Source: Pempheris klunzingeri (taxonomy: Eukaryota; Chordata; Actinopteri; Acropomatiformes; Pempheridae). From it: a DNA stretch of 64,000 nucleotides. Numbering within the stretch: position 1 is the stretch's first letter; each line of letters begins with the position of its first letter. A program made the position numbers and the translations under genes. The notes below the pieces were generated by a model. That model did no database searches, had not been told where the DNA came from, and saw nothing but the letters and a program-made list of their open reading frames with translations. Location: NCBI RefSeq assembly GCF_042242105.1, contig NC_092032.1, positions 20,128,415 to 20,192,414 on the forward strand, in the 5' to 3' direction. This document shows positions 24,347-64,000 of the stretch, piece by piece.

Positions 24347-26521
24347 TCAGAGGAGGCCGAGGTGTTCACAGAGGAAGGGGTCGACCTCACACAGGAACTC
24401 AATCATCTGTGAACTAGCAGCTCCTCCTTTCTTCCTCACCGTGTCGAAGACAAAACGAGCTTTGTCTCTCAGGTTTGGGAACTCGTCCGCTGACTCCCTC
24501 TCAGGCTCGGCCAGCACCGTTTTCTCAAACAGTTTGTCCAGCAGACTTTTGAGGACAGGTCCCGATATCCCATGGATGAAGCTGCTCCGTACCTCCATCA
24601 GCCTCTCGTCTGGAGGCAGATTCAGAGCGCTCGGCCCGCAGGACCTTCTTACTCCAGCGGACGAGAGGCGGACTCGTCTCTCCCAGACACTGCTGGAGCT
24701 GCTGGTGTCTCTCAGAAACAGTCTCATGTGCTTCATGACTGTTTCCCAGCTCACCTGGAATGAAGGGAAGTAGTTGTCATAGTTGTCAGAGTCAAATTCT
24801 GCCTCTGCTGGCTGCACTAGGACGGAGTCGTCTCCAGGACCAGCGGTCAGTGTGTATTCCTGCTTTGGGTGCAGCTTGCAGTGTGGGGACGTCTCTATGT
24901 AGACCTCATCTCCAACCAGCTTCCTCCTGGTGCGCAGCACGTCCCGGAGCACCACGTTCCTCGGCAGCATCAACACATTGAGCAGGGACTCTGGATCAGG
25001 ATCGGCCGGGGGCCTGTAGAACAGCAGGACCAGCGCTCGGACCGGATCGGGTGGGCAGTCTTCGTCCTTGACGTTACCGAAAGCAGAAAACCCTGTGACG
25101 TTTATAACCACGTGAGTGTCTGTGATCTTATGAGGGCCGATGAACTCCACGCCGCCATCGTGCTCGTGAGCGACGGACAAGAAGCGCCATCCCCCCGTGG
25201 AGCGGATCTCACAGTGTGGGAGGTGAAGCTGACACACAGAGCGCTGCTCACATGTGATGTCAAACAGGGGTCCTGCAGGCTGCTTGTGATGTTGGGCCAG
25301 CAGCCTCCTGCTCCAAGGGACGGTCCTGTAGACCACGTCCCCCTCTGCCTCCATGTGGAACAGCAGGCCGGTCACACTGCACTGGTACAGGCCTGGGCGG
25401 CAGCACTGGAACCTGTAGGCTTCCTCCTCTTCATCAGCGCTGATATCGGGGGTGAACTCCTCAAAGCTGCTTTCTAACAGCACGTCAGGTGAGCTGTTTG
25501 CTCGAGTGAAGCTCTTGTTCTCCGCAGAGGGGATGTGACTCAGCGAGGGCAGGCTGTGAGAACGAGGCAAACGGCCGGAGCCTCTTCCAGCCCAACCGGG
25601 ACCTGAGGGGGAGCTCGGGGGGCCGGGACGGGCCGGCAGGGTGTTTGTGGCCGAGTAGTTCACAGCTGTAACAGGTGGCTCCACTTCCATGGGGACAACA
25701 TCACCTCCTGCCTCACGGTCAGGCTGCTCAGACAGCAGCTGGGAGACAACATGCACTGATGTGGAGGGAGACTGGAGACTGAGAGCAGAGGGCAGAGCTT
25801 TCCTTTTCACTCTGTCAGCCATGACAGAATGTGGTGCTTTTCTCTTTGGTCTGTTACCTGCTGAAGATGAGTAAGAGAGCTCTTTCCAAGGGCCAATAAA
25901 GAGCGATGAGCTTGCTGCTGATCCGATATCGCTTTCTTGAATCAAACACAGCCCACGCTGGGGTAACAACTCTTTCTCCTCTTTCTCCTCCTCCTCCTCC
26001 TCCTCCTCCTTTGTGTTTTCTTGTGGGACATCATCATCTTCACCTCCTGCCTCACTTTCAGACTCCTCAGATGCATCTGATGCTCCACTTCCTTCAGTGC
26101 AGACAGTTGGGTCCTGCAGGACTGCAGACCTGTTCTGTGGACACGGAGGACTAAAAACTGTTCGGGCTCTGGACTTAGTGGATATGATACTTCCTATATA
26201 CCCTCGGTGATGTGAAGAGAGTTGTTGATACGTAGGAGGCTGCCTATCGACAGGGGAAACCTCACAGCCGAATGGTCGCAGGTGAGAATAATCTTCGAGG
26301 TGGAAAGAGTTAGACCTTCTGCCGATGTGGCTCCTGGAAGAGGAAGACCTGCTGTCGATGTGGATCCTGGAAGAGGAAGACCTGCTGTCGATGTGGATCC
26401 TGGAAGAGGAAGACCTTCTGCCGATGTGGATCCTGGACAGAGCTCTCCTGATCCATCTGGCTGCCCTGCTGAAACATGACGCTTCTCTTTCTGTTCCTTC
26501 GTCTTCCTCATCTGATGCCAT
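24347..26521 (-). CDS. FIIND-CARD protein, copy 4, 724 aa
   Basis: Four 11-residue repeats: RIHIGRRSSSS, two RIHIDSRSSSS, then RSHIGRRSNSF. The last leads to HLEDYSHLRPFGCEVSP, a segment not found in copies 1 and 2. Middle segment of the LLPQRGL type. Next to the catalytic histidine the sequence is AHEHDGGVEFIGPH instead of AHEHDDGVEFIAPH. The histidine (H452) and F478-S479 are intact, so self-cleavage is still expected. Confidence 0.93.
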   Translation of the reverse strand: MASDEEDEGTEREASCFSRAARWIRRALSRIHIGRRSSSSRIHIDSRSSSSRIHIDSRSSSSRSHIGRRSNSFHLEDYSHLRPFGCEVSPVDRQPPTYQQLSSHHRGYIGSIISTKSRARTVFSPPCPQNRSAVLQDPTVCTEGSGASDASEESESEAGGEDDDVPQENTKEEEEEEEEKEEKELLPQRGLCLIQESDIGSAASSSLFIGPWKELSYSSSAGNRPKRKAPHSVMADRVKRKALPSALSLQSPSTSVHVVSQLLSEQPDREAGGDVVPMEVEPPVTAVNYSATNTLPARPGPPSSPSGPGWAGRGSGRLPRSHSLPSLSHIPSAENKSFTRANSSPDVLLESSFEEFTPDISADEEEEAYRFQCCRPGLYQCSVTGLLFHMEAEGDVVYRTVPWSRRLLAQHHKQPAGPLFDITCEQRSVCQLHLPHCEIRSTGGWRFLSVAHEHDGGVEFIGPHKITDTHVVINVTGFSAFGNVKDEDCPPDPVRALVLLFYRPPADPDPESLLNVLMLPRNVVLRDVLRTRRKLVGDEVYIETSPHCKLHPKQEYTLTAGPGDDSVLVQPAEAEFDSDNYDNYFPSFQVSWETVMKHMRLFLRDTSSSSSVWERRVRLSSAGVRRSCGPSALNLPPDERLMEVRSSFIHGISGPVLKSLLDKLFEKTVLAEPERESADEFPNLRDKARFVFDTVRKKGGAASSQMIEFLCEVDPFLCEHLGLL

Positions 26522-28331
26522 TTTGCTCTGTTCAGCAGCGTCACAGTCAGAGTCAGTGCAGCCCTCTGTGACTCACCTCTGTGTTTGTTGGACTATTTCC
26601 TCATTCTCGTAATTTCTCCTTAATTTTTACCCTAAAACTGAACTTCACTTCACTTTTTTTTACACCTGTGAGAGTTTCTCAATATATTTGAACCCTTGTT
26701 TATTTGTGTCCTTCGTCTTTCTCCGGCTTCACACCCTGAAATACAATTACAAAAGTTAAAATCTCCCAAAAATCTATAGGGTCACAACTATAGTCTGAGT
26801 TTTCCTTGGCAGGGTTTGGAAACTCTGCACAACTCTTCACTGGTTCATTTCGCTCCCACTGGACCGTAGAACGTTTCATGAAAGTTAAAGTAGAAATGTG
26901 TGCTCACACCGTACGGTGCTTTCCTGACTGCTCAGCTCTTCCTCGTGTGATGTGAGGAAACTGAACTTTTCAGACAAACTAACTTCTTATTAACTCTGTT
27001 TTTAACAAACCGACAATCTCATGTCAGATTATAACATTTTAGCCAATAATTCAGATGTTAATACATCAGCTTTGTCTCTGACTCACCGGTGAGCTGCTCT
27101 GGATGCGTTCAGCCTTCAAACCTTCAGAGGAAAGTGATCATGAGTGGCCGGTGAACTTCTGGTTGTGAAACTTCTGCTTCAGCGTTTTTTCCCTCCTCCC
27201 TTTTAGCACAACGTTCACAGCGACAAAGCTTAGCAGGCTGAATCTTAACAAGACTTCATCCCACCATTTTTAAAAATGCAAATAAAACCAAAACATCCAA
27301 ACTAAAACTTAAAGCCTGTTCTCAGACTAATGAAGACGAGTAACTGGACCAGGACACAACAGAAAAAACATTAGTAGAACTGCACCATCAGTCAAGTCAG
27401 AGAGTCAGATCCTCCTGAGAGTTATTATTAGATCAACGAGGCTCTTGTTTAAAATGTTAAAGTGAATCTTTAAAAAAAAAAAAAACCAGTCTTTATTCTC
27501 CTGGCGTGTCCTTAGTGTGGCAGTGGACGTGTCTTTGTCTCTGCTGGTCTGCATCAGGAGCAACCACAAGAAAAACTACATGAAATACAATGAAGTAAAA
27601 GTCCTAGAAATCTTAAAAAGAGATATTTAACATCGTTGTTGAAGAATTTAACTTCCAGCGTACTGTTGTGTATATTTGAGATTATATATTAATAAATGAA
27701 TATGCTGTGTAAATACATATATTTGACACAGTAACCACAAGACATAAAGCAATAGTTTGGGTATATATCTTTTTTTTTTTAATTGTATCATTTCACAGTT
27801 GTAAAATAACCTTGATGTGACTAAAGTCTCTCCACAGAAGCATCGAAAAACAAATAAAAGTTAGCATCTGTAGCGCAGACATTCAACAAAGCACAAGAAC
27901 CTTTCGTCAGATATTGTGTGTCCATCATTTCCTGCTGACATCAGCTCACATAAAAGTGTGATGTTCAGTGGTGGAGAGGAACAAAGCCAATAATATCAAT
28001 AATAATGCTGCAGCTTCCAGATTTAAAATTACAATTTACATTTGCAAAAAAAATTTAAAAAATAATTCTGAGACTGCTTCTTAAAACTGTCCAACAATAA
28101 AATGAATAAAAACAATATTGTTAAAAAATCAAGATCATTGAGACGATTCTCAAACTGCTTCTTTAAAACTAGCAAACTATAAAATAACTCAAATGTTTGT
28201 CATCCTCTAAATCTGCACAGGAACCTTTTGATAACTTGTGTATCAGTGCTGACAGGATTCAAATCACAGTCTGACAGGATCAGTGTGGAATCAGCAGAGA
28301 GCACAGAGACACTGTGTTCATGTCCTGATGT
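26522..28331 (-). other. Spacer between copies 4 and 5
   Basis: Same structure as the other spacers: copy 4 5' UTR exon and intron (donor near 27087, acceptor near 26738), then copy 5 3' UTR with a candidate AATAAA near 27490. No further genes. Confidence 0.6.
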
Positions 28332-30377
28332 TCAGAGGAGGCCGAGGTGTTCACAGAGGAAGGGGTCGACCTCACACAGGAACTCAATCATCTGTGAACT
28401 AGCAGCTCCTCCTTTCTTCCTCACCGTGTCGAAGACAAAACGAGCTTTGTCTCTCAGGTTTGGGAACTCGTCCGCTGACTCCCTCTCAGGCTCGGCCAGC
28501 ACCGTTTTCTCAAACAGTTTGTCCAGCAGACTTTGGAGGACAGGTCCCGATATCCCATGGATGAAGCTGCTCCGTACCTCCATCAGCCTCTCGTCTGGAG
28601 GCAGATTCAGAGCGCTCGGCCCGCAGGACCTTTTTACTCCAGCGGACGAGAGGCAGACTCGTCTCTCCCAGACACTGCTGGAGCTGCTGGTGTCTCTCAG
28701 AAACAGTCTCATGTGCTTCATGACTGTTTCCCAGCTCACCTGGAATGAAGGGAAGTAGTTGTCATAGTTGTCAGAGTCAAATTCTGCCTCTGCTGGCTGC
28801 ACTAGGACGGAGTCGTCTCCAGGACCAGCGGTCAGTGTGTATTCCTGCTTTGGGTGCAGCTTGCAGTGTGGGGACGTCTCTATGTAGACCTCATCTCCAA
28901 CCAGCTTCCTCCTGGTGCGCAGCACGTCCCGGAGCACCACGTTCCTCGGCAGCATCAACACATTGAGCAGGGACTCTGGATCAGGATCGGCCGGGGGCCT
29001 GTAGAACAGCAGGACCAGCGCTCGGACCGGATCGGGTGGGCAGTCTTCGTCCTTGACGTTACCGAAAGCAGAAAACCCTGTGACGTTTATAACCACGTGA
29101 GTGTCTGTGATCTTATGAGGGGCGATGAACTCCACGCCGTCATCGTGCTCGTGAGCGACGGACAAGAAGCGCCATCCCCCCGTGGAGCGGATCTCACAGT
29201 GTGGGAGGTGAAGCTGACACACAGAGCGCTGCTCACATGTGATGTCAAACAGGGGTCCTGCAGGCTGCTTGTGATGTTGGGCCAGCAGCCTCCTGCTCCA
29301 AGGGACGGTCCTGTAGACCACGTCCCCCTCTGCCTCCATGTGGAACAGCAGGCCGGTCACGCTGCACTGGTACAGGCCTGGGCGGCAGCACTGGAACCTG
29401 TAGGCTTCCTCCTCTTCATCAGCGCTGATATCGGGGGTGAACTCCTCAAAGCTGCTTTCTAACAGCACGTCAGGTGAGCTGTTTGCTCGAGTGAAGCTCT
29501 TGTTCTCCGCAGAGGGGATGTGACTCAGCGAGGGCAGGCTGGGAGAACGAGGCAAACGGCCGGAGCCTCTTCCAGCCCAACCGGGACCTGAGGGGGAGCT
29601 CGGGGGGCCGGGACGGGCCGGCAGGGTGTTTGTGGCCGAGTAGTTCACAGCTGTAACAGGTGGCTCCACTTCCATGGGGACAACATCACCTCCTGCCTCA
29701 CGGTCAGGCTGCTCAGACAGCAGCTGGGAGACAACATGCACTGATGTGGAGGGAGACTGGAGACTGAGAGCAGAGGGCAGAGCTTTCCTTTTCACTCTGT
29801 CAGCCATGACAGAATGTGGTGCTTTTCTCTTTGGTCTGTTACCTGCTGAAGATGAGCAACAGGGCTTTCGCTCAAAGCCAATAGGGAGTGATGGCCTTGC
29901 TGCTGAACTGATTATCATCTGATCACTGAGTAGGTAATGCCTTCTCGGGGGGATAGGGGGATGGGCAGCATAGGAAACGTAATCATTACCGTCGTCGTGG
30001 TCGTCCTCCTCCTCGTCCTCCTCCTCGTCCTCCTCCTCCTCCTTTGTGTTTTCTTGTGGGACATCATCATCTTCACCTCCTGCCTCACGTTCAGACTCCT
30101 CAGATGCATCTGATGCTCCGCTTCCTTCAGTGCAGACGGCTGAGTTCTGCAGGACTGCAGACCTGTTCTGTGGACACGGAGGACTAAAAACCATTTGGGC
30201 TCTGGACGGAGAGGATATGATCATGGAAGAGGAAGACCTTCTGCCGATGTGGCTCCTGGAAGAGGAAGACCTTCTGCCGATGTGGATCCTGGACAGAGCT
30301 CTCCTGATCCATCTGGCTGCCCTGCTGAAACATGACGCTTCTCTTTCTGTTCCTTCGTCTTCCTCATCTGATGCCAT
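28332..30377 (-). CDS. FIIND-CARD protein, copy 5, 681 aa
   Basis: Shortest N-terminus in the array. After two 11-residue repeats it jumps straight to MIISSPSRAQMVFSPPCPQN, missing the segment that follows the repeats in copies 1-4. Middle segment of the DYVSYAAHPPIPPRRH type, as in copy 3. Cleavage site F435-S436, histidine H409. Changes in the CARD half: VCL for VRL and VLQSLL for VLKSLL. It is the most upstream gene of the array and has a different 5' exon from copies 1-4. Confidence 0.93.
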   Translation of the reverse strand: MASDEEDEGTEREASCFSRAARWIRRALSRIHIGRRSSSSRSHIGRRSSSSMIISSPSRAQMVFSPPCPQNRSAVLQNSAVCTEGSGASDASEESEREAGGEDDDVPQENTKEEEEDEEEDEEEDDHDDGNDYVSYAAHPPIPPRRHYLLSDQMIISSAARPSLPIGFERKPCCSSSAGNRPKRKAPHSVMADRVKRKALPSALSLQSPSTSVHVVSQLLSEQPDREAGGDVVPMEVEPPVTAVNYSATNTLPARPGPPSSPSGPGWAGRGSGRLPRSPSLPSLSHIPSAENKSFTRANSSPDVLLESSFEEFTPDISADEEEEAYRFQCCRPGLYQCSVTGLLFHMEAEGDVVYRTVPWSRRLLAQHHKQPAGPLFDITCEQRSVCQLHLPHCEIRSTGGWRFLSVAHEHDDGVEFIAPHKITDTHVVINVTGFSAFGNVKDEDCPPDPVRALVLLFYRPPADPDPESLLNVLMLPRNVVLRDVLRTRRKLVGDEVYIETSPHCKLHPKQEYTLTAGPGDDSVLVQPAEAEFDSDNYDNYFPSFQVSWETVMKHMRLFLRDTSSSSSVWERRVCLSSAGVKRSCGPSALNLPPDERLMEVRSSFIHGISGPVLQSLLDKLFEKTVLAEPERESADEFPNLRDKARFVFDTVRKKGGAASSQMIEFLCEVDPFLCEHLGLL

Positions 30378-31071
30378 TTTGCTCTGTTCAGCAGCGTCAC
30401 AGTCAGAGTCAGTGCAGCCCTCTGTGACTCACCTCTGTGTTTGTTGGACTATTACAAACTTCACTTCACTTTTTTTACGTTGCACAGAGTTTCTGAATAT
30501 GTTCAAACCCTCGTTTATTTGTCTCCTTTGTCTTTCTCCAGCTTCACACCCTGAAATACAATTACAAAAGTTAAAATCAGCCACATTGGCTATTTACAGG
30601 TACAAATAGCATCTGCCAAAGAACCTAAACTCCACTGAATGAAGCTCTGGTTCACAGTATGTGGAGCTGAATAACGTTAGAAGTGGAAAAGAAATCTAAA
30701 AACTACATCAACTCCTCCTGTGCTCCAGTGAGCCAACTAAAGATGATCCAGTGGATCCTCCACAGCCTTATTAACTCCCTCTTGATCGGTACTTTGGAAA
30801 CCTTTCATGACGATTGAATCAGCCACACAGATCTAAAATCACAAATGCCCTCAGAGACTTGTTCTTAGCCACCGGCACAGTTGTTGAGTTTGTCTGTGGC
30901 CTCCATTAGAAACCTTTGGTTGCTGTAAAGAACATCTTAAATATGAGATGGAAAATAAAACATAACTGATCTGCACAGTGCTCCAGGAGTCAGAGCTGTT
31001 ATTAGTCTGGATAAACTCAGTCATTCTCATTATTAACATTATTCCCACAAGCAGTTTTATTTCAGACTCAC

Positions 31072-46936: not shown

Positions 46937-47392
46937 TTTCTTTTTCTTATTTTTCTATTCATGTCTGTGGGATGTTAGATGGGAGAGGTCAGATGAACTT
47001 TGCTTTATGACGACAATAAATCTGATTCTGATTATATCTAGATTTGGTCTTTGAAGGAAAAATGTGACTAATATTTTAAAGAGGGCAGAAATGAACTTTT
47101 TCTTACTCTTGTGTCGAAGACAATCAGTGGATTTTCTTCTCAGACTAAATTCAAAGATTTAAAGATTTCTGCACGATAAAGAAATGTTTCTGAGGACAGT
47201 TGATGGGAGAGACGTACATGCAGTAGATTTCTGATATTGTATTGTAATAGCATGTCCCGTTATATTGTGATCACTCAGCTCTCTAACAGATATTTTATAA
47301 TGAAACATTTATTCACTATTAATTTTCCATTCTCTGCTTTGTTTGTTTTTCAGGGCTAAGAAACGAGTGTAAACACTGAAGCCAGAAACAAG

Positions 47393-49132
47393 ATGGAAAC
47401 GGAAAAACTGTGTAAGCGGCGGGATAGAAATCGAGCCCGGAGTTTCCGTGGTGATGCTGCGCTTCCATTTTTTGATGTAGCTTCTGAAGAAGCTGCCCTG
47501 CTGCTGTCTGGATGGATAAAAGAGAGAACATCCCACTATCTGTGTGAACTCAGTGCCCCGGTGTACAGGTCTCCTTCCTTTCCCGTCTTTTTTCACGCTG
47601 GCAACAGAAGATATGACCGACAGACGTCCAGATGTTGTAAAGCAGAGTCACAAACCTACAAACCTGCAGTTAGAGAAGATGGCCGACGTCTGGCAGATAT
47701 ACTTTCGACACTCGGTGATGAGCTACAACTTCCTCCCTCCCAGTCCTACATGTCACACATGGTGGACCGCTCTAAGTCCATAATTACTTCTGCTGGACTT
47801 GTCCTCAATAACATTTTCACATGGAAGCACAAGAGTGACCATAAAGAAGAAGAAGAAGCCCCGAAGAAAAAGCAGCTGTCTGAGCAGCCTGACCGTGAGG
47901 CAGGAGGTGATGTTGTCCCCATGGAAGTGGAGCCACCTGTTACAGCTGTGAACTACTCGGCTACAAACACCCTGCCAGCAAACAGCTCACCTGACGTGCT
48001 GTTAGAAAGCAGCTTTGAGGAGTTCACCCCTGATATCAGCGCTGATGAAGAGGAGGAAGCCTACAGGTTCCAGTGCTGCCACCCAGGCCTGTACCAGTGC
48101 AGTGTGACCGGCCTGCTGTTCCACATGGAGGCAGAGGGGGACGTGGTCTACAGGACCGTCCCTTGGAGCAGGAGGCTGCTGGCCCAACATCACAAGCAGC
48201 CTGCAGGACCCCTGTTTGACATCACATGTGAGCAGCGCTCTGTGTGTCAGCTTCACCTCCCACACTGTGAGATCCGCTCCACGGGGGGATGGCGCTTCTT
48301 GTCCGTCGCTCACGAGCACGATGACGGCGTGGAGTTCATCGCCCCTCATAAGATCACAGACACTCACGTGGTTATAAACGTCACAGGGTTTTCTGCTTTC
48401 GGTAACGTCAAGGACGAAAACTGCCCACCCGATCCGGTCCGAGCGCTGGTCCTGCTGTTCTACAGGCCCCCGGCCGATCCTGATCCAGAGTCCCTGCTCA
48501 ATGTGTTGATGCTGCCGAGGAACGTGGTGCTCCGGGACGTGCTGCGCACCAGGAGGAAGCTGGTTGGAGATGAGGTCTACATAGAGACGTCCCCACACTG
48601 CAAGCTGCACCCAAAGCAGGAATACACACTGACCGCTGGTCCTGGAGACGACTCCGTCCTAGTGCAGCCAGCAGAGGCAGAATTTGACTCTGACAACTAT
48701 GACAACTACTTCCCTTCATTCCAGGTGAGCTGGGAAACAGTCATGAAGCACATGAGACTGTTTCTGAGAGACACCAGCAGCTCCAGCAGTGTCTGGGAGA
48801 GACGAGTCCGCCTCTCGTCCGCTGGAGTAAAAAGGTCCTTCGGGCCGAGCGCTCTGAATCTGCCTCCAGACGAGAGGCTGATGGAGGTACGGAGCAGCTT
48901 CATCCATGGGATATCGGGACCTGTCCTCAAAAGTCTGCTGGACAAACTGTTTGAGAAAACGGTGCTGGCCGAGCCTGAGAGGGAGTCAGCGGACGAGTTC
49001 CCAAACCTGAGAGACAAAGCTCGTTTTGTCTTCGACACGGTGAGGAAGAAAGGAGGAGCTGCTAGTTCACAGATGATTGAGTTCCTGTGTGAGGTCGACC
49101 CCTTCCTCTGTGAACACCTCGGCCTCCTCTGA
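47393..49132 (+). CDS. FIIND-CARD copy 6 with a foreign BH3-like N-terminus, 579 aa
   Basis: Inverted relative to copies 1-5. A strong acceptor (ttgtttgtttttcag, ending 47353) precedes the exon, and the ATG lies 40 nt in. Residues 1-160 (METEKLCKRRDRNRARSF and on) share nothing with the other copies and have no 11-residue repeats. Residues 100-111, LADILSTLGDEL, fit the BH3 pattern of pro-death Bcl-2 proteins (compare BIM IAQELRRIGDEF). The family sequence begins at QLSEQPDREAGG (~161). A 44-residue proline/serine linker (RPGPP..FTRA in other copies) is missing in frame, between LPA and NSSPDV. ZU5, H307, F333-S334, UPA and CARD are intact. The native expression and the BH3 role are untested. 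Confidence 0.9.
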   Translation: METEKLCKRRDRNRARSFRGDAALPFFDVASEEAALLLSGWIKERTSHYLCELSAPVYRSPSFPVFFHAGNRRYDRQTSRCCKAESQTYKPAVREDGRRLADILSTLGDELQLPPSQSYMSHMVDRSKSIITSAGLVLNNIFTWKHKSDHKEEEEAPKKKQLSEQPDREAGGDVVPMEVEPPVTAVNYSATNTLPANSSPDVLLESSFEEFTPDISADEEEEAYRFQCCHPGLYQCSVTGLLFHMEAEGDVVYRTVPWSRRLLAQHHKQPAGPLFDITCEQRSVCQLHLPHCEIRSTGGWRFLSVAHEHDDGVEFIAPHKITDTHVVINVTGFSAFGNVKDENCPPDPVRALVLLFYRPPADPDPESLLNVLMLPRNVVLRDVLRTRRKLVGDEVYIETSPHCKLHPKQEYTLTAGPGDDSVLVQPAEAEFDSDNYDNYFPSFQVSWETVMKHMRLFLRDTSSSSSVWERRVRLSSAGVKRSFGPSALNLPPDERLMEVRSSFIHGISGPVLKSLLDKLFEKTVLAEPERESADEFPNLRDKARFVFDTVRKKGGAASSQMIEFLCEVDPFLCEHLGLL

Positions 49133-49405
49133 ACATCAGGACATGAACACAGCGTCTCTGTGCTCTCTGCTGATTCCACACTGATCCTGTCAGACTGTGA
49201 TTTGAATCCTGTCAGCACTGATACACAAGTTATCAAAAGGTTCCTGTGCCGATTTAGAGGATGACAAACATTTGAGTTATTTTATAGTTTGCTAGTTTTA
49301 AAGAAGCAGTTTGAGAATCGCCTCAATGATCTTGATTTTTTAACAATATTGTTTTTCTTCATTTTATTGTTGGACAGTTTTAAGAAGCAGTCTCAGAATT
49401 ATTAT
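49133..49405 (+). repeat. Inverted copy of the array's 3' flank
   Basis: Reads as the reverse complement of the 3' UTR of copies 2-5 (for example 12965-13229) almost base for base. Homology stops near 49405 at a fish repeat. Confidence 0.9.
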
Positions 49406-50899: not shown

Positions 50900-51090
50900 A
50901 TCCATATGGTGTTTTTCCACTTGTACCTACTCGGAGCGACTCGACCCGGTTTTTCTGGTTTTCCACCAGGTGATAGTATAATAGGTGATATAGGTGACAT
51001 ATTAAGTGATAGGTGATATTTTAGTCTGGTACCAGGTACTATTTTAGTACCTCCTCGGCCGCAGTGTGGCCAACGCCTCAATAAGGAAAG
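50900..51090. mobile_element. hAT-like MITE fragment
   Basis: GTTTTTCCACTTGTACCTAC, TCGGAGCGACTCGACCCGGT and, near the other end, GGTACCAGGTACTATTTTAG. This TIR-type text is common in spiny-rayed fish. Family is a guess. Confidence 0.5.
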
Positions 51091-52335: not shown

Positions 52336-52502
52336 GCAATGAGAGAAAGGTAACAAAGTGATGTTAAACTGAGTCACACACACAATCTGGATTTACCTGG
52401 ACGATGGCTACATGAGGGTATTACTGCTGTGGCAACAACTATCTCCAGAAATGATCAGAATCTGCTCTCGTCCTTCTATATTCCTGTCAGACGAGATGCT
52501 AG

Positions 52503-52572
52503 ATGAAGAGTCGGGCAACAGGAAGAAGGCGGGATTACAAGAAGACTCAACTCGTCTGCAGCAGCTCGCTGG
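52503..52572 (+). CDS. Candidate 5' coding exon of the giant FIIND-family gene
   Basis: ATG followed by MKSRATGRRRDYKKTQLVCS SSL, ending with one base (G) before the consensus donor gtgagtc. Spliced to the AG at 53213-53214 it reads ..SSL-DEEGTEREAS and enters the giant frame in phase. The alternative acceptor, ending 53093 (ttgtatttcag), is stronger but leads to a stop at 53216. Which one is used is unknown. Confidence 0.45.
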
Positions 52573-53213
52573 GTGAGTCTGAAATAAAACTGCTTGTGGG
52601 AATAATGTTAATAATGAGAATGACTGAGTTTATCCAGACTAATAACAGCTCTGACTCCTGGAGCATTGTGCAGATCAGTTATGTTTTATTTTCCATCTCA
52701 TATTTAAGATGTTCTTTACAGCAACCAAAGGTTTCTAATTGAGGCTACAGACAAACTCAACAACTGTGCCGGTGGCTAAGAACAAGTCTCTGAGGGCATT
52801 TGTGATTTTAGATCTGTGTGGCTGATTCAATCATCATGAAAGGTTTCCAAAGTACCGATCAAGAGGGAGTTAATAAGGCTGTGGAGGATCCACTGGATCA
52901 TCTTTAGTTGGCTCACTGGAGCACAGGAGGGGTTGATGTAGTTTTTAGATTTCTTTTCCACTTCTAACATCATTCAGCTCCACATACTGTGAACCAGAGC
53001 TTCATTCAGTGGAGTTTAGGTTCTTTGGCAGATGCTATTTGTACCTGTAAATAGCCAATGTGGCTGATTTTAACTTTTGTAATTGTATTTCAGGGTGTGA
53101 AGCCGGAGAAAGACAAAGGAGACAAATAAACGAGGGTTTGAACATATTAAGAAACTGTAAAAAAAAAAAGTCACAGAGGGCTGCACTGACTCTGACTGTG
53201 ATGCTGCTGAACA

Positions 53214-56200
53214 GATGAGGAAGGAACAGAAAGAGAAGCGTCAGCCAGATGGAGAGCTCCGTCCAACATCCAAATCACCAGCAAGTCTGCCTCTTTAAAC
53301 TTCGACAATGATGGTACACCAATCTCCAGACATCCCCCAGAGTTTCGAGGAAGTATCAGATCCCCTTGGTCCAGAGCACCAACTGTTTTTAGTCCTCCAT
53401 GTCCACAGAGCAGGTCTGCAGTTCTGCAGGACTTAACTGTCTGCACTGAAGGAATCAGTGCAACAGATGCATCTGAGCAGCCTGACCGTGAGGAGGAGAC
53501 ACCTGTCTATGGTTCCTATAAAGTGGTGGAGGAAACAAGAGCAGAGAACCCAAAGGAGGAGGAGAAGGAGACACCTGTCTATGGTGCCTATAAAGTGGTG
53601 GAGGAAACAAGAGCAGAAAACATTAAGGAGGAGGAGAAGGAGACATCTGTCTATGGTTCCTATAAAGTGGTGGAGGAAACAAGAGCAGAAAATATGAAGG
53701 AGGAGGAGAAGGAGACACCTGTCTATGGTTCCTATAAAGTGGTGGAGGAAACAAGAGCAGAAAACATTAAGGAGGAGGAGAAGGAGACACCTGTCTATGG
53801 TTCCTATAAAGTGGTGGAGGAAACAAGAGCAGAAAATATGAAGGAGGAGGAGAAGGAGACACCTGTCTATGGTTCCTATAAAGTGGTGGAGGAAACAAGA
53901 GCAGAAAACATTAAGGAGGAGGAGAAGGAGACACCTGTCTATGGTTCCTATAAAGTGGTGGAGGAAACAAGAGCAGAAAATATGAAGGAGGAGGAGAAGG
54001 AGACACCATTCTATGGTGCCTATAAAGTGGTGGAGGAAACAAGAGCAGAAAACATTAAGGAGGAGGAGAAGGAGACATCTGTCTATGGTTCCTATAAAGT
54101 GGTGGAGGAAACAAGAGCAGAAAATATGAAGGAGGAGGAGGAGGACATTTACTGTGCTGTCCCTCCCTCTAAGGTGAGAAGGTATCACCCATTCAGTCAT
54201 CATGTGACAATCGGATCAGCAACAAAGCCATCACACTCTATTGGCACTAGAAAAGATGAACTCAGTTTCATATCTGCAGTTGAAAGAGCAAAGAGAAAAG
54301 CACGACATTCTGTCATGGCTGACAGAATAAAAAGGAAAGCTCTGCCCTCTGCTCTCAGTCTCCAGTCTCCCTTCACATCAGTGCATGTTGCCTCCCAGCT
54401 GCTGTCTGAGCAGCCTGACCGTGAGGCAGGAGGTGATGATGATGATGTCCTGAAAACAAGAACAGAAAATATGAAGGAGGAGGTGGAGGACATTTACTGT
54501 GCTGTCCCTCCCTCTAAGGTAAGATGGTGTCACCCATTCAGTCATCGTGTGACAATCGGATCAACAACAAAGCCATCACTCTCTATTGGCACTAGAAAAG
54601 ATCAACTCAGCCAAATCACCGGCAAGTTTGCCTCTTTAAACTTCGACGGTGATTGTACACCAATCTCCATGCATCCCCCAAAGTTTCGAAGAAGTATCAG
54701 ATCCCCTTGGTATGGAGCCCCAACTGTTTTTAGTCTTCCATGTCCACAGAGCAGGTCTGCCTCTTCCGGAAGCCAAATCACCGGCAAGTCTGCCTCTTCC
54801 CGGAAACAAATCACCAGCAAGTCTGCCTCTTTAAACTTCGACGGTGATTGTACACCAATCTCCATGCATCCCCCAGAGTTTCGAAGAAGTATCAGATCCC
54901 CTTGGTATGGAGCCCCAACTGTTTTTAGTCCTCCATGTCCACAGAGCAGGTCTGCAGTTCTGCAGGACTTAACTGTCTGCACTGAAGGAATCAGAGCAAC
55001 AGATGCATCTGAGCAGCCTGACCGTGAGAAGGAGACACCTGTCTATGGTTCCTATAAAGTGGTGGAGGAAACAAGAGCAGAGAACCCAAAGGAGGAGGAG
55101 AAGGAGACACCTGTCTATGGTGCCTATAAAGTGGTGGAGGAAACAAGAGCAGAAAACATTAAGGAGGAGGAGAAGGAGACATCTGTCTATGGTTCCTATA
55201 AAGTGGTGGAGGAAACAAGAGCAGAAAATATGAAGGAGGAGGAGAAGGAGACACCTGTCTATGGTTCCTATAAAGTGGTGGAGGAAACAAGAGCAGAAAA
55301 CATTAAGGAGGAGGAGAAGGAGACACCTGTCTATGGTTCCTATAAAGTGGTGGAGGAAACAAGAGCAGAAAACATTAAGGAGGAGGAGAAGGAGACACCT
55401 GTCTATGGTTCCTATAAAGTGGTGGAGGAAACAAGAGCAGAAAATATGAAGGAGGAGGAGAAGGAGACACCTGTCTATGGTTCCTATAAAGTGGTGGAGG
55501 AAACAAGAGCAGAAAATATGAAGGAGGAGGAGAAGGAGACACCATTCTATGGTGCCTATAAAGTGGTGCAGGAAACAAGAGCAGAAAACATTAAGGAGGA
55601 GGAGAAGGAGACATCTGTCTATGGTTCCTATAAAGTGGTGGAGGAAACAAGAGCAGAAAATATGAAGGAGGAGGAGAAGGAGACATCTGTCTATGGTTCC
55701 TATAAAGTGGTGGAGGAAACAAGAGCAGAAAATATGAAGGAGGAGGAGGAGGACATTTACTGTGCTGTCCCTCCCTCTAAGGTGAGAAGGTATCACCCAT
55801 TCAGTCATCATGTGACAATCGGATCAGCAACAAAGCCATCACACTCTATTGGCACTAGAAAAGATGAACTCAGTTTCATATCTGCAGTTGAAAGAGCAAA
55901 GAGAAAAGCACGACATTCTGTCATGGCTGACAGAATAAAAAGGAAAGCTCTGCCCTCTGCTCTCAGTCTCCAGTCTCCCTTCACATCAGTGCATGTTGCC
56001 TCCCAGCTGCTGTCTGAGCAGCCTGACCGTGAGGCAGGAGGTGATGATGATGATGTCCTGAAAACAAGAACAGAAAATATGAAGGAGGAGGTGGAGGACA
56101 TTTACTGTGCTGTCCCTCCCTCTAAGGTAAGATGGTGTCACCCATTCAGTCATCGTGTGACAATCGGATCAACAACAAAGCCATCACTCTCTATTGGCAC

Positions 56201-59200
56201 TAGAAAAGATCAACTCAGCCAAATCACCGGCAAGTTTGCCTCTTTAAACTTCGACGGTGATTGTACACCAATCTCCATGCATCCCCCAAAGTTTCGAAGA
56301 AGTATCAGATCCCCTTGGTATGGAGCCCCAACTGTTTTTAGTCTTCCATGTCCACAGAGCAGGTCTGCCTCTTCCGGAAGCCAAATCACCGGCAAGTCTG
56401 CCTCTTCCCGGAAACAAATCACCAGCAAGTCTGCCTCTTTAAACTTCGACGGTGATTGTACACCAATCTCCATGCATCCCCCAGAGTTTCGAAGAAGTAT
56501 CAGATCCCCTTGGTATGGAGCCCCAACTGTTTTTAGTCCTCCATGTCCACAGAGCAGGTCTGCAGTTCTGCAGGACTTAACTGTCTGCACTGAAGGAATC
56601 AGAGCAACAGATGCATCTGAGCAGCCTGACCGTGAGAAGGAGACACCTGTCTATGGTTCCTATAAAGTGGTGGAGGAAACAAGAGCAGAGAACCCAAAGG
56701 AGGAGGAGAAGGAGACACCTGTCTATGGTTCCTATAAAGTGGTGGAGGAAACAAGAGCAGAAAATATGAAGGAGGAGGTGGAGGACATTTACTGTGCTGT
56801 CCCTCCCTCTAAGGTGAGAAGGTATCACCCATTCAGTCATCATGTGACAATCGGATCAGCAACAAAGCCATCACACTCTATTGGCACTTGGAAAAATGAA
56901 CTCAGTTTCATATCTGCAGTTGAAAGAGCAAAGAGAAAAGCACCACATTCTGTCATGGCTGACAGAATAAAAAGGAAAGCTCTGCCCTCTGCTCTCAGTC
57001 TCCAGTCTCCCTTCACATCAGTGCATGTTGCCTCCCAGCTGCTGTCTGAGCAGCCTGACCGTGAGAAGGAGACACCTGTCTATGGTTCCTATAAAGTGGT
57101 GGAGGAAACAAGAGCAGAGAACCCAAAGGAGGAGGAGAAGGAGACACCTGTCTATGGTTCCTATAAAGTGGTGGAGGAAACAAGAGCAGAAAATATGAAG
57201 GAGGAGGTGGAGGACATTTACTGTGCTGTCCCTCCCTCTAAGGTGAGAAGGTATCACCCATTCAGTCATCATGTGACAATCGGATCAGCAACAAAGCCAT
57301 CACACTCTATTGGCACTTGGAAAAATGAACTCAGTTTCATATCTGCAGTTGAAAGAGCAAAGAGAAAAGCACCACATTCTGTCATGGCTGACAGAATAAA
57401 AAGGAAAGCTCTGCCCTCTGCTCTCAGTCTCCAGTCTCCCTTCACATCAGTGCATGTTGCCTCCCAGCTGCTGTCTGAGCAGCCTGACCGTGAGAAGGAG
57501 ACACCTGTCTATGGTTCCTATAAAGTGGTGGAGGAAACAAGAGCAGAGAACCCAAAGGAGGAGGAGAAGGAGACACCTGTCTATGGTTCCTATAAAGTGG
57601 TGGAGGAAACAAGAGCAGAAAATATGAAGGAGGAGGTGGAGGACATTTACTGTGCTGTCCCTCCCTCTAAGGTGAGAAGGTATCACCCATTCAGTCATCA
57701 TGTGACAATCGGATCAGCAACAAAGCCATCACACTCTATTGGCACTTGGAAAAATGAACTCAGTTTCATATCTGCAGTTGAAAGAGCAAAGAGAAAAGCA
57801 CCACATTCTGTCATGGCTGACAGAATAAAAAGGAAAGCTCTGCCCTCTGCTCTCAGTCTCCAGTCTCCCTTCACATCAGTGCATGTTGCCTCCCAGCTGC
57901 TGTCTGAGCAGCCTGACCGTGAGAAGGAGACACCTGTCTATGGTTCCTATAAAGTGGTGGAGGAAACAAGAGCAGAAAGTATGAAGGAGGAGGAGGAGGA
58001 CATTTACTGTGCTGTCCCTCCCTCTAAGGTGAGATTGTGTCACCCATTCAGTCATCATGTGACAATCGGATCAACAACAGAGCCATCACACTCTATTGGC
58101 ACTAGAAAAGATGAACTCAGTTTCATATCTGCAGTTGAAAGAGCAAAGAGAAAAGCACCACATTCTGTCATGGCTGACAGAATAAAAAGGAAAGCTCTGC
58201 CCTCTGCTCTCAGTCTCCAGTCTCCCTTCACATCAGTGCATGTTGCCTCCCAGCTGCTGTCTGAGCAGCCTGACCGTGAGGCAGGAGGTGATGATGATGA
58301 TGTCCTGAAAACAAGAACAGAAAATATGAAGGAGGAGGTGGAGGACATTTACTGTGCTGTCCCTCCCTCTAAGGTAAGATGGTGTCACCCATTCAGTCAT
58401 CGTGTGACAATCGGATCAACAACAAAGCCATCACTCTCTATTGGCACTAGAAAAGATGAACTCAGCCAAATCACCGGCAAGTCTGCCTCTTTAAACTTCG
58501 ACGGTGATTGTACACCAATCTCCATGCATCCCCCAAAGTTTCGAAGAAGTATCAGATCCCCTTGGTATGGAGCCCCAACTGTTTTTAGTCTTCCATGTCC
58601 ACAGAGCAGGTCTGCCTCTTCCGGAAGCCAAATCACCGGCAAGTCAGCCTCTTCCGGGAACCAAATCACCGGCAAGTCTGCCTCTTTCCGGAAACAAATC
58701 ACCAGAAAGCCTAACTCTTCCGGAAGCCAAATCACCGGCAAGTCTGCCTCTTCCAGAAGCCAAATTACCAGCAAGTCTGCCTCTTTAAACTTCGACGGTG
58801 ATTGTACACCAATCTCCATGCATCCCCCAAAGTTTCGAAGAAGTATCAGATCCCCTTGGTATGGAGCCCCAACTGTTTTTAGTCCTCCATGTCCACAGAG
58901 CAGGTCTGCAGTTCTGCAGGACTCAACTGTCTGCACTGAAGGAATCAGAGCAACAGATGCATCTGAGCAGCCTGACCGTGAGAAGGAGACACCTGTCTAT
59001 GGTTCCTATAAAGTGGTGGAGGAAGCAAGAGCAGAAAACATTAAGGAGGAGGAGAAGGAGACACCTGTCTATGGTTCCTGTAAAGTGGTGGAGGAAACAA
59101 GAGCAGAAAGTATGAAGGAGGAGGAGGAGGACATTTACTGTGCTGTCCCTCCCTCTAAGGTGAGATGGTGTCACCCATTCAGTCATCATGTGACAATCGG

Positions 59201-62200
59201 ATCAACAACAGAGCCATCACACTCTATTGGCACTAGAAAAGATGAACTCAGCCAAATCACCGGCAAGTCTGCCTCTTCCGGAAGCCAAATCACCGGCAAG
59301 TTTACCTCTCCGGGAAGCCAAATCACCGGCAAGTCTGCCTCTTCCAGAAGCCAAATCACCGGCAAGTCAGCCTCTTCCGGGAAACAAATCACCAGAAAGC
59401 CTGACTCTTCCAGAAGCCAAATCACCAGCAAGTCTGCCTCTTCCGGGAAACAAATCACCGGAAAGCCTGACTCTTCCAGAAGCCAAATCACCGGCAAGTC
59501 TGCCTCTTCCAGAAGCCAAATCACCAGCAAGTCAGCCTCTTCCGGGAACCAAATCACCGGCAAGTCTGCCTCTTCCCAAAGTCAAATCACCGGCAAGTCT
59601 GCCTCTTCCGGGAACCAAATCACCGGCAAGTCTGCCTCTTCCAGGAGCCAAATCACCAGCAAGTCTGCCTGTCCCGGAAGCCAAATCACCGGCAAGTCTG
59701 CCTCTTCCGGGAGCCAAATCACCGGCAAGTCTGCCTCTTCCGGAAGCCAAATCACCAGCAAGTCTGCCTCTTCCGGAAGCCAAGTTACTGGCAAATCTGC
59801 CTCTTTATACTTCGACTGTGATGGTACACCAATCTCCATACATCCCCTAGAGTTTCTAGGAAGTATCAGATCCCCTTGGTATGGAGCCCCAACTGTTTTT
59901 AGTCCTCCATGTCCACAGAGCAGGTCTGCCTCTTCCGGGAGCCAAATCACCGGCAAGTTTACCTCTCAGGGAAGCCAAATCACCGGCAAGTCAGCCTCTT
60001 CCGGGAAACAAATCACCAGAAAGCCTGACTCTTCCAGAAGCCAAATCACCGGCAAATCTGCCTCTTCCGGGAAACAAATCACCAGAAAGCCTGACTCTTC
60101 CAGAAGCCAAATCACCAGCAAATCTGCCTCTTTCGGAAGCCAAATCACCAGCAAGTCAGCCTCTTCCGGGAACCAAATCACCGGCAAGTCTGCCTCTTCC
60201 CGAATTCAAATCACCGGCAAGTCTGCCTCTTCCGGGAACCAAATCACCGGCAAGTCTGCCTCTTCCAGGAGCCAAATCACCAGCAAGTCTGCCTGTCCCG
60301 GAAGCCAAATCACCGGCAAGTCTGCCTCTTCCGGAAGCCAAATCACCGGCAAGTCTGCCTCTTCCGGAAGTCAAATCACCGGCAAGTCAGCCTCTTCTGG
60401 GAAACAAATCACCAGAAAGCCTGCCTCTTCCGGAAGCCAAATCACCGGCAAGTCTGCCTCTTCCGGAAGCCAAATCACCAGCAAGTCAGCCTCTTCCGGG
60501 AACCAAATCACCGGCAAGTCTGCCTCTTCCGGAAGCCAAATCACCAGCAAGTCTGCCTCTTCCGGAAGCCAAATCACCGGCAAGTCTGCCTCTTCCGGAA
60601 GCCAAATCACCAGCAAGTCTGCCTCTTCCGGAAGCCAAATCACCGGCAAGTCTGCCTCTTCCGGAAGTCAAATTACCGGCAAGTCTGCCTCTTTAAACTT
60701 CGACGGTGATTGTACACCAATCTCCATGCATCCCCCAAAGTTTCGAAGAAGTATCAGATCCCCTTGGTATGGAGCCCCAACTGTTTTTAGTCCTCCATGT
60801 CCACAGAGCAGGTCTGCAGTTCTGCAGGACTCAACTGTCTGCACTGAAGGAATCAGAGCAACAGATGCATCTGAGCAGCCTGACCGTGAGAAGGAGACAC
60901 CTGTCTATGGTTCCTATAAAGTGGTGGAGGAAGCAAGAGCAGAAAACATTAAGGAGGAGGAGAAGGAGACACCTGTCTATGGTTCCTGTAAAGTGGTGGA
61001 GGAAACAAGAGCAGAAAGTATGAAGGAGGAGGAGGAGGACATTTACTGTGCTGTCCCTCCCTCTAAGGTGAGATGGTGTCACCCATTCAGTCATCATGTG
61101 ACAATCGGATCAACAACAGAGCCATCACACTCTATTGGCACTAGAAAAGATGAACTCAGCCAAATCACCGGCAAGTCTGCCTCTTCCGGAAGCCAAATCA
61201 CCGGCAAGTTTACCTCTCCGGGAAGCCAAATCACCGGCAAGTCTGCCTCTTCCAGAAGCCAAATCACCGGCAAGTCAGCCTCTTCCGGGAAACAAATCAC
61301 CAGAAAGCCTGACTCTTCCAGAAGCCAAATCACCAGCAAGTCTGCCTCTTCCGGGAAACAAATCACCGGAAAGCCTGACTCTTCCAGAAGCCAAATCACC
61401 GGCAAGTCTGCCTCTTCCAGAAGCCAAATCACCAGCAAGTCAGCCTCTTCCGGGAACCAAATCACCGGCAAGTCTGCCTCTTCCCAAAGTCAAATCACCG
61501 GCAAGTCTGCCTCTTCCGGGAACCAAATCACCGGCAAGTCTGCCTCTTCCAGGAGCCAAATCACCAGCAAGTCTGCCTGTCCCGGAAGCCAAATCACCGG
61601 CAAGTCTGCCTCTTCCGGGAGCCAAATCACCGGCAAGTCTGCCTCTTCCGGAAGCCAAATCACCAGCAAGTCTGCCTCTTCCGGAAGCCAAGTTACTGGC
61701 AAATCTGCCTCTTTATACTTCGACTGTGATGGTACACCAATCTCCATACATCCCCTAGAGTTTCTAGGAAGTATCAGATCCCCTTGGTATGGAGCCCCAA
61801 CTGTTTTTAGTCCTCCATGTCCACAGAGCAGGTCTGCCTCTTCCGGGAGCCAAATCACCGGCAAGTTTACCTCTCAGGGAAGCCAAATCACCGGCAAGTC
61901 AGCCTCTTCCGGGAAACAAATCACCAGAAAGCCTGACTCTTCCAGAAGCCAAATCACCGGCAAATCTGCCTCTTCCGGGAAACAAATCACCAGAAAGCCT
62001 GACTCTTCCAGAAGCCAAATCACCAGCAAATCTGCCTCTTTCGGAAGCCAAATCACCAGCAAGTCAGCCTCTTCCGGGAACCAAATCACCGGCAAGTCTG
62101 CCTCTTCCCGAATTCAAATCACCGGCAAGTCTGCCTCTTCCGGGAACCAAATCACCGGCAAGTCTGCCTCTTCCAGGAGCCAAATCACCAGCAAGTCTGC

Positions 62201-64000
62201 CTGTCCCGGAAGCCAAATCACCGGCAAGTCTGCCTCTTCCGGAAGCCAAATCACCGGCAAGTCTGCCTCTTCCGGAAGTCAAATCACCGGCAAGTCAGCC
62301 TCTTCTGGGAAACAAATCACCAGAAAGCCTGCCTCTTCCGGAAGCCAAATCACCGGCAAGTCTGCCTCTTCCGGAAGCCAAATCACCAGCAAGTCAGCCT
62401 CTTCCGGGAACCAAATCACCGGCAAGTCTGCCTCTTCCGGAAGCCAAATCACCAGCAAGTCTGCCTCTTCCGGAAGCCAAATCACCGGCAAGTCTGCCTC
62501 TTCCGGAAGCCAAATCACCAGCAAGTCTGCCTCTTCCGGAAGCCAAATCACCGGCAAGTCTGCCTCTTCCGGAAGTCAAATTACCGGCAAGTCAGCCTCT
62601 TCCGGGAAACAAATCACCGGCAAGTCTGCCTCTTCCAGAAGCCAAATCACCGGCAAGTCTGCCTCTTCCGGAAGCCAAGTTACCGGCAAGTCTGCCTCTT
62701 TATACTTCGACTGTGATGGTACACCAATCTCCATACATCCCCTAGAGATTCTAGGAAGTATCAGATCCCCTTGGTATGGAGCCCCAACTGTTTTTAGTCC
62801 TCCATGTCCACAGAGCAAGTCTGCCTCTTCCGGAAGCCAAATCACCGGCAAGTCAGCCTCTTCCGGAAGCCAAATCACCGGCAAGTCAACTGTTTTTAGT
62901 CCTCCATGTCCACAGAGCAGGTCTGCAGTTCTGCAGGACTTAACTGTCTGCACTGAAGGAATCAGAGCAACAGATGCATCTGAGCAGGCTGACCGTGAGA
63001 AGGAGACACCTGTCTATGGTGCCTATAAAGTGGTGGAGGAAACAAGAGCAGAAAACATTAAGGAGGAGGAGAAGGAGACACCTGTCTATGGTTCCTATAA
63101 AGTGGTGGAGGAAACAAGAGCAGAGAACCCAAAGGAGGAGGAGAAGGAGACACCTGTCTATGGTTCCTATAAAGTGGTGGAGGAAACAAGAGCAGAGAAC
63201 CCGAAGGAGGAGGAGAAGGAGACACCTGTCTATGGTTCCTATAAAGTGGTGGAGGAAACAAGAGCAGAGAACCCGAAGGAGGAGGAGAAGGAGACACCTG
63301 TCTATGGTTCCTATAAAGTGGTGGAGGAAACAAGAGCAGAAAACATTAAGGAGGAGGAGAAGGAGACACCTGTCTATGGTTCCTGTAAAGTGGTAGAGGA
63401 AACAAGAGCAGAAAACATTAAGGAGGAGGAGAAGGAGACATCTGTCTATGGTTCCTATAAAGTGGTGGAGGAAACAAGAGCAGAAAACATTAAGGAGGAG
63501 GAGAAGGAGACACCTGTCTATGGTTCCTATAAAGTGGTGGAGGAAACAAGAGCAGAAAACATTAAGGAGGAGGAGAAGGAGACACCTGTCTATGGTTCCT
63601 ATAAAGTGGTGGAGGAAACAAGAGCAGAGAACCCGAAGGAGGAGGAGAAGGAGACACCTGTCTATGGTTCCTATAAAGTGGTGGAGGAAACAAGAGCAGA
63701 AAACATTAAGGAGGAGGAGAAGGAGACACCTGTCTATGGTTCCTGTAAAGTGGTGGAGGAAACAAGAGCAGAAAACATTAAGGAGGAGGAGAAGGAGACA
63801 TCTGTCTATGGTTCCTGTAAAGTGGTGGAGGAAACAAGAGCAGAAAACATTAAGGAGGAGGAGAAGGAGACACCTGTCTATGGTGCCTATAAAGTGGTGG
63901 AGGAAACAAGAGCAGAAAACATTAAGGAGGAGGAGAAGGAGACATCTGTCTATGGTTCCTGTAAAGTGGTGGAGGAAACAAGAGCAGAAAACATTAAGGA
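53214..64000 (+). CDS. Giant open frame: expanded N-terminal modules of a FIIND-CARD-type gene (partial)
   Basis: An uninterrupted frame (codon starts divisible by 3) runs from just after the TGA at 53208 to the right edge, ~3,595 codons. I checked the phase at twenty module landmarks and all agree. It starts DEEGTEREAS, as in copies 1-5, but the usual ATG is deleted; without splicing the first in-frame ATG is at 53694. Modules: 11-residue SQITGKSASS repeats (equivalent to RSHIGRRSSSS), a TPIS..APTVFSPPCPQSRSAVLQ segment, 24-residue acidic repeats (KETPVYGSYKVVEETRAENI), a DIYCAVPPSKVRRYHPFSHH segment, and RKARHSVMADRIKRKALPS. All have counterparts in copies 1-5 in the same order. The FIIND and CARD, if present, lie beyond the window. 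Coding is strongly suggested, expression is not shown. Confidence 0.75.
53481..54137 (+). repeat. 72-bp repeat block, 9 copies
   Basis: Nine tandem 24-codon units of type EEEKETPVYGSYKVVEETRA plus ENxK. The last-but-one position alternates I/M/P. The block ends in EEEEDIYCAVPPSK. Confidence 0.95.
54138..56600 (+). repeat. 1608-bp in-frame tandem duplication
   Basis: Modules from DIYCAVPPSK to RSAVLQDLTVCTEG at 54150-54990 recur at 55758-56598, exactly 1608 bp later (536 codons). The second unit contains the 10-copy 72-bp block (55024-55746). Confidence 0.92.
55024..55746 (+). repeat. 72-bp repeat block, 10 copies
   Basis: Ten 24-codon units. One unit has GTGCAGGAA (VVQE) for VVEE, and one has PFYGAY instead of PVYGSY. 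Confidence 0.95.
56636..57925 (+). repeat. 429-bp in-frame module, three tandem copies
   Basis: Each copy: two 24-codon acidic units, DIYCAVPPSKVRRYHPFSHH, the IKRKALPS patch, then QLLSEQPDREKETPVYG, where the next copy begins. Offsets of 429 bp (143 codons) are seen at 56811, 57240 and 57669. Confidence 0.94.
58607..58790 (+). repeat. 33-bp (11-codon) repeats, about 5-6 copies
   Basis: Units GSQITGKSASS, GNQITGKSASF, RKQITRKPNSS and so on. A first small 11-codon array; smaller ones are at ~54600-54835 and ~56210-56440. Confidence 0.93.
59248..59805 (+). repeat. 33-bp (11-codon) repeat array, ~17 copies
   Basis: Consensus in the sense frame GSQITGKSASS. Recurrent variants are GNQ, GKQ and RSQ at the start, and ITRKPDSS. 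Repeated almost exactly at 61156-61713. Confidence 0.95.
59925..60696 (+). repeat. 33-bp (11-codon) repeat array, ~23 copies
   Basis: Same unit, with higher-order ordering: a KQITRKPDSSRSQITGKSAS dimer is itself repeated. Its duplicate at 61833-62705 has extra units at its 3' end. Confidence 0.95.
61156..61713 (+). repeat. 33-bp repeat array, second copy
   Basis: Duplicate of 59248-59805, offset 1908 bp. Confidence 0.94.
61833..62890 (+). repeat. 33-bp repeat array, ~28 copies in two parts
   Basis: Duplicate of 59925-60696 extended by several units to 62705, a TPIS..VFSPP spacer, then two or three more units to 62890. Confidence 0.93.
62996..64000 (+). repeat. 72-bp repeat block, at least 13 copies, runs off the window
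   Basis: The longest run of 24-codon acidic units; some read GSCKVVEE with cysteine for tyrosine. Still in frame at the last base. Confidence 0.95.

Follow-up and report, generated by a model that had tools for sequence, protein, structure and literature searches.

A 4,196-codon FIIND-CARD reading frame with a multiplied repeat region in Pempheris klunzingeri

A giant frame in a nine-gene FIIND-CARD cluster

We analysed a stretch of 64,000 nucleotides from the genome of Pempheris klunzingeri (NCBI RefSeq assembly GCF_042242105.1, contig NC_092032.1, positions 20,128,415 to 20,192,414 of the forward strand), hereafter the window, together with the adjoining sequence of the same contig. At the right-hand edge, an open plus-strand frame runs from 53,211 to the window end (53211..64000, 3,596 codons), in agreement with a previous sequence-only reading, and continues through 64001-65801 (window numbering, TGA included) to a TGA stop at 65,799-65,801. 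From stop to stop, this giant frame counts 4,196 codons in a single exon. Neither the window nor the adjoining sequence contains a single N, and stops number between 78 and 252 in each of the five alternative frames of this DNA. As a fact of the sequence, the frame can be regarded as practically certain.

The same reading had proposed that the frame might join a FIIND and a CARD on its right side, and profile matches revealed both. Downstream of the window edge, the plus strand encodes a FIIND (64713-65084, window numbering; Pfam PF13553, 5.6e-45, 152.6 bits for a cut-off of 25.8), a UPA-FIIND (65106-65477; PF23679, 1.6e-24) and a CARD (65544-65792; PF00619, 7e-10), all of them far exceeding the Pfam cut-offs. 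Pfam scans of the frame detected neither NACHT nor LRR, and the nearest listed NACHT on the contig is located ~114 kb away, with 97 of 138 candidates scored. In alignment with human CARD8, equivalents of H252, H270, F296 and S297, for which the available text of PMC3210808 describes roles in autocleavage, are present in the giant, while the E279 and S295 positions are occupied by Ile and Gly, respectively. According to the same text, replacing E279 by Ala lowered cleavage without abolishing it and the effect of S295 was small (PMC3210808); E279 is treated here as modulating rather than defining FIIND-CARD membership. Since the four cleavage-residue equivalents are kept and the CARD part alone matched the PDB chains of ICEBERG and caspase-1, the parts needed for a CARD8-type mechanism are present in the predicted protein.

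Eight paralogues share the cluster with the giant. Five are encoded on the minus strand, namely g1 (9283..11475, FIIND-UPA-CARD, 730 codons), g2 (13230..15506, 758 codons), g3 (17265..19454, 729 codons), g4 (24347..26572, 741 codons) and g5 (28332..30428, 698 codons). The plus strand carries g6 (47360..49132, 590 codons, with a different N-terminus) and, outside the window, g9 (74682-77081, window numbering, 799 codons), while g8 (69483-71777, 764 codons) also lies beyond the window edge. A whole-genome profile scan recovered at least 33 FIIND matches, nine of which cover the model in one piece; all nine (9/9) belong to this cluster, and their FIIND frames are unbroken in every copy. The remaining 24 matches are partial, and many of them come in pairs that separate around profile position 80-90, as though an intron lay there. 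Among these, the loci on C3 (1.39 Mb), C8 (1.65 Mb) and C23 (4.78 Mb) look like NLRP1, because a NACHT match lies about 5-7 kb away, and C8 provided the best match of g5 outside the cluster (53% identity over 74 residues). With its FIINDs unsplit while the other 24 matches are partial, the cluster has the appearance of a retrocopy, or else of a lineage that lost the intron, amplified afterwards.

The conserved cores of the eight neighbours differ from that of the giant at only 3 to 8 of 1,152 bases, and the relationship extends into the region ahead of it. The modules of g1 match along those of the giant and, as had been suggested from sequence alone, the giant's modules are collinear with the coding frame of the neighbours: across four of the eight neighbours, and with repeats matched many times, 94-98% of the aligned bases fall in the same codon phase (4,407/4,595 for g1, 4,001/4,243 for g3, 9,480/9,838 for g9 and 11,263/11,519 for g8). 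Agreement was poorer when whole blastn pieces were considered (23/23, 13/20, 19/43 and 35/57 in phase at their start; 14, 11, 34 and 43 at their end), because local phase shifts arise from gaps near the ends of the pieces; in one inspected piece, a 1-base gap was followed by 5 bases. The T and F blocks of the giant were found by pattern in 4/8 and 6/8 neighbours, respectively. By contrast, the 11-residue unit, counted 98 times in the giant, occurs in 0-8 copies in the neighbours (2 to 8 where present), and the VYG unit of the giant is absent from all eight. As the copy number of the 11-residue unit differs between paralogues, changes in repeat number are a trait of the cluster. When the first 301 bases and a 115-residue module were searched genome-wide, 25/25 and 18/18 of the listed matches, respectively, fell within the cluster, giant included.

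Anatomy, growth and constraint of the repeat region

Ahead of the conserved part, the giant frame comprises ~3,750 codons made mostly of repeats. Motif counts on the translation yielded 98 copies of an 11-residue unit, 46 copies of a 24-residue unit, 12 copies of a module containing EDIYCAVPPSK, seven S blocks and four exact F motifs, with units recurring in repeated order. All of the following elements lie on the plus strand. The 24-residue (72-bp) unit, with peptides such as VVEETRAENIK and no corresponding array in the neighbours, forms arrays of nine copies at 53490..54145 and ten copies at 55026..55753, and a last array of 16 copies in all (in-window part 62997..64000), which ends near 64151 and is followed by the conserved C-terminal part. 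The first of the 12 EDIYCAVPPSK modules occupies 54141..54254, with a splice-like site before 54174, and the twelfth is outside the window. A 429-bp unit is repeated 3.2 times at 56616..57976, its three full copies being identical, and the 11-residue (33-bp) arrays at 59250..62700 are embedded in a nearly identical 1,908-bp duplication.

It had been argued that random repeat growth would quickly break such a frame. This proved too strong, as the 25 largest self-matches printed (25/25) are all offset by multiples of three, as unequal exchange between in-frame units would produce. The unit lengths preserve the reading frame, and the repeat region ahead of the conserved linker probably grew by unequal exchange between in-frame units of 33, 72, 429, 1,608 and 1,908 bp. 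The openness of the frame is beyond chance, although less dramatically than its length implies, since copying an open unit in steps of three yields repeats that remain open unaided. The divergence between copies is uneven: a single codon distinguishes the 1,908-bp duplicates once a short, mismatched 14-codon repeat edge is set aside, the 1,608-bp repeats are 98.1% identical, and mean pairwise identity falls to 93.9% for the 72-bp units and 85.1% for the 33-bp units. Because the 429-bp copies are identical and the 1,908-bp copies nearly so, while the 1,608-bp repeats are ~2% apart, the array has a history, with either very recent last steps or some assembly uncertainty in two places.

Repeat variation provided little sign of protein-level constraint. 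The 72-bp units (46/46) hold 5 synonymous and 14 nonsynonymous distinct variants (N/S relative to expectation 0.93), the EDIYCAVPPSK modules (12/12) 2 and 7 (1.28), and the 33-bp units (98/98) 13 and 18 (0.56), the latter set including module-edge units that inflate its variation. In the 33-bp and module sets, one further single-site change each would alone create a stop; as the frame has none, these changes must co-occur with others in the same codon. For the repeats, ~2.3 stops were expected and none was seen, which is weak evidence. Repeat variation therefore looks near neutral, with no clear constraint on the protein. Across its nine copies, the FIIND-CARD core shows 2 synonymous and 12 nonsynonymous variants and no purifying signal. 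The T and F blocks give opposite dN/dS pictures from too few sites to decide: dS 0.19-0.25 and dN 0.07-0.10 for the T block of the giant against g1, g2, g4 and g9, and dS 0.015-0.046 and dN 0.026-0.047 for the F block against its neighbours (six of eight found, four printed).

Insertions and deletions offered a stronger argument for the openness of the frame than substitutions, but the underlying rate is rough. The upstream pieces show about 0.04 indels per substitution, against 0.27 for all pieces taken together apart from the short one to g1, and 75% of indels were assumed to break the frame. By this rough estimate, 0.5% of neutral divergence would bring 4.7 or more frame breaks (P about 0.009 or less for none). 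Neutral decay would hence break the frame within about 0.5% divergence, so the giant is either translated or was silenced only recently.

The structural nature of the arrays was assessed on composition and by modelling. The two arrays, scoring -0.288 and -0.143 by charge-hydropathy against +0.006 for a C/F/S block, are both likely disordered on this measure, while AlphaFold2 speaks otherwise for the 24-residue array, which, modelled alone, formed a beta-solenoid (pLDDT 82.1, pTM 0.75). As a control, almost the same DNA read in antisense was modelled as helices (pLDDT 60.7, pTM 0.44) with no solenoid artefact, which speaks somewhat for the solenoid. We nevertheless distrust the model, because AlphaFold2 is described in the available text of PMC11795689 as yielding confident but unrealistic solenoids for perfect repeats. 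Foldseek comparison of the solenoid model with the PDB returned no match at E 0.001 or better and 138 at E 10 or better, and a 192-residue part of the last 24-residue array had no sequence relative in the PDB at E 1 or better. A CsoS2_M match of the array (Pfam, 1.1e-9, 38.6 bits, cut-off 22) was set aside as a match of short repeats within a vertebrate-type FIIND-CARD gene; over the whole array no single stretch passes the set limit, and on the 33-bp part alone two stretches pass at 33 bits. UPF0029 and DUF4980 were discarded, both remaining below their Pfam cut-offs.

Loss of the family start and competing explanations

The start ATG (MASDEE...) common to seven paralogues has been removed from the giant by a 16-bp deletion, which also shifted the frame, and an in-frame TGA (53208..53210, plus strand) stands directly before the giant frame, adjoining the deletion. 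Read-in from upstream within the same exon is ruled out by this TGA, and, as it lies after the upstream A-run, a different length of that run would presumably bring no rescue. Just downstream of the lost start, three deletions of 6, 15 and 6 bases keep the frame, the first of them also being found in g3. The first in-frame ATG is codon 162 (53694..53696, plus strand), with an A at -3, and ten out-of-frame ATGs precede it between 53201 and 53653.

These features lend weight to the explanation that the giant is a recently silenced copy, whose array would have grown under translation before the 16-bp deletion took its start codon, leaving too little time for breaks to accumulate. The deleted ATG, the adjacent TGA, the ten out-of-frame ATGs and the near-neutral variation of repeats and core are all consistent with it, and the event could be very young, since the upstream pieces over 600 bp differ by only 1.1-2.9% from those of g5, g8 and g9. 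Against it stand the 12.6 kb without frameshift or stop, given the low probability of such integrity after even slight neutral divergence, and the presence of sequences that may serve as substitute starts. One of these is codon 162. Another would involve a presumed 5' exon, whose end part (52441..52572, plus strand) is followed by a GTGAGT donor and is 95.5-98.5% identical in three paralogues, and a presumed 5' UTR intron (52573..53093, plus strand) with the acceptor TTGTATTTCAG, identical in the 8 aligned copies (g6 not among them). The exon was located in four copies (31072-31203, 52441-52572, 68338-68469 and 73910-74038), in all of which (4/4) its frame of 40 to 41 codons is open to the donor, one copy being 3 bases shorter, in frame. 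Through the shared acceptor, this frame stops one codon past the junction, but an AG before 53,375 would connect it to the giant frame in phase; entry by this alternative 5' exon is only a lead for a way round the lost start. The upstream 1.94 kb of the giant is 98.9% identical to that of the intact paralogue g9, so the two probably have a regulatory region in common. On balance, we give recent silencing a sizeable chance of being correct, though not an even one.

A second explanation retains the giant exon and makes the protein smaller, the array being spliced out in whole modules at AAG|GTRAGA sites to produce in-frame isoforms of variable length. In all 12 EDIYCAVPPSK modules (12/12), CCCTCCCTCTAAG followed by GTRAGA places a strong donor motif beside an acceptor-like one, in codon phase 0 and after a pyrimidine-rich stretch. 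The donors (9 GTGAGA and 3 GTAAGA) reach 10.6-11.1 of a possible 12.7 bits, computed with general donor frequencies; the plus strand of window positions 1-53,000 has 0.40 sites per kb that exceed 8.5 bits. Each of the eight neighbours has a single site above 10 bits, CAGGTGAGC in the UPA part, which is also present in the giant, whereas the 12-fold site is found in the giant only. However, the modules are duplicates of one another and do not count as 12 independent cases, their acceptor side carries a terminal AAG where CAG or TAG would be usual, and a match in sequence need not mean use. We consider modular splicing as the main explanation to be improbable.

Inflation of the copy number of real repeats by the assembly, which the identical 429-bp copies and the nearly identical 1,908-bp duplicates might suggest, is very improbable given the absence of N and the divergence of the other copies, and removing two of the 429-bp copies together with one of the 1,908-bp copies would presumably still leave about 3,270 codons.

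A possible CARD8-type sensor

The giant gene is a real and extreme variant of the CARD8 layout, and it could work like CARD8 if its predicted translation takes place. Like the giant, human CARD8 carries ZU5, UPA and CARD at its C-terminus and lacks NACHT and LRR. The two differ in the N-terminal region, of 161 residues in human CARD8 according to the available text of PMC10249858 and about 3,750 in the giant, within one coding exon, as well as in the E279 and S295 positions and in the loss of the family start codon. With fish NLRP1 (NACHT-LRR-FIIND-CARD; PMC9978379 and PMC11508797, in their available parts), the giant has the FIIND-CARD C-terminus in common but neither the NACHT nor the LRR, and the same parts of these fish inflammasome reviews place FIIND-CARD within NACHT-LRR proteins (PMC9978379, PMC11508797). 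Among open-access PubMed Central titles and abstract openings, no description of a FIIND-CARD protein with a multiplied repeat N-terminus was found, and the accessible portions of PMC6988351 and PMC11192531 hold nothing on FIIND.

We tentatively interpret the giant as a present-day translated sensor of CARD8 type that has lost the family start, a reading in which our confidence stays somewhat below one half. It would be an over-grown member of a nine-gene FIIND-CARD cluster without the FIIND intron, keeping the order of N-terminal region, ZU5, UPA and CARD, with translation beginning elsewhere than at the family ATG, for instance at codon 162 or in the alternative 5' exon. The FIIND would cut itself between F3950 and S3951 (codons numbered from 53,211), and the giant N-terminal fragment would stay clamped on UPA-CARD. 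This fragment would then be lost once a pathogen protease cuts at any point of the repeats or the proteasome attacks the long chain, and the freed UPA-CARD may recruit caspase-1. The many copies of each unit would provide as many equal bait sites and a long proteasome entry. The frame with its C-terminal domains, the kept cleavage-residue equivalents, the CARD matches, the unbroken FIINDs of all nine copies, the variable repeat number of the paralogues, the upstream region resembling that of g9 and the rough indel estimate speak for this reading. The lost start with its ten out-of-frame ATGs, the lack of clear constraint in repeats and core, the residues at the E279 and S295 positions, the share of length owed to identical or nearly identical duplicates and the doubt cast on disorder by the solenoid model speak against it.

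Such a scheme has precedents in the available texts on CARD8, where the disordered N-terminus is described as a tripwire that viral proteases trigger, UPA-CARD being freed when the N-terminal part is degraded (PMC10249858), and where the 20S proteasome is reported to remove disordered N-termini whatever their sequence (PMC9213247). In unstressed cells, trimming by the 20S proteasome reportedly leaves an inhibitory remnant and does not activate the sensor (PMC9213247); a long disordered part therefore need not mean easier firing. The full proposal, i.e. a functional inflammasome sensor some 4,000 residues long with bait repeats multiplied about a hundredfold, its length perhaps tuned by splicing between the 12 in-frame dual splice sites and by differences in repeat number between individuals, appears unlikely.

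Protease sensing by CARD8 and NLRP1 relies on N-terminal stretches that change fast. A natural gene in which this region is more than twenty times as long as in CARD8, flanked by eight genes whose cores are almost identical but which did not grow in this way, would offer a direct test of what sets the threshold of such sensors, the candidates being bait number, chain length and proteasome access. If silenced, the giant would instead illustrate the way in which a gene of this kind can be terminated by expanding repeats and the loss of its start.

Several minor observations concern motifs and neighbouring sequences. The repeated EDIYxxV and VYGSYKVV motifs of the giant resemble tyrosine-phosphorylation sites, which, like the modelled beta-solenoid, offers another candidate reading of what the repeats may do. 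Roughly where the giant has EDIYCAVPPSK, three paralogues (17265-19454, minus; 28332-30428, minus; 74682-77081, plus) carry PPIPPRR, which resembles an SH3-binding motif, after an acidic tyrosine stretch. The N-terminus of g6 (residues 1 to about 160) occurs once in the genome as searched and has no Pfam match at E 1; its stretch LADILSTLGDEL resembles a BH3 motif. The 3' flanks of the giant (65802-67631) and g6 (49133-50962) are 97% identical over 1.83 kb although the N-termini are for the most part different, a pattern suggestive of segmental duplication or conversion. Finally, inspection by eye identified frames resembling GIMAP/AIG1-type immune GTPases between the FIIND-CARD genes (32659-33288, minus; 34428-35138, plus), as well as LINE-like reverse-transcriptase and endonuclease frames within the cluster (20227-21480 and 37313-41793, both plus).
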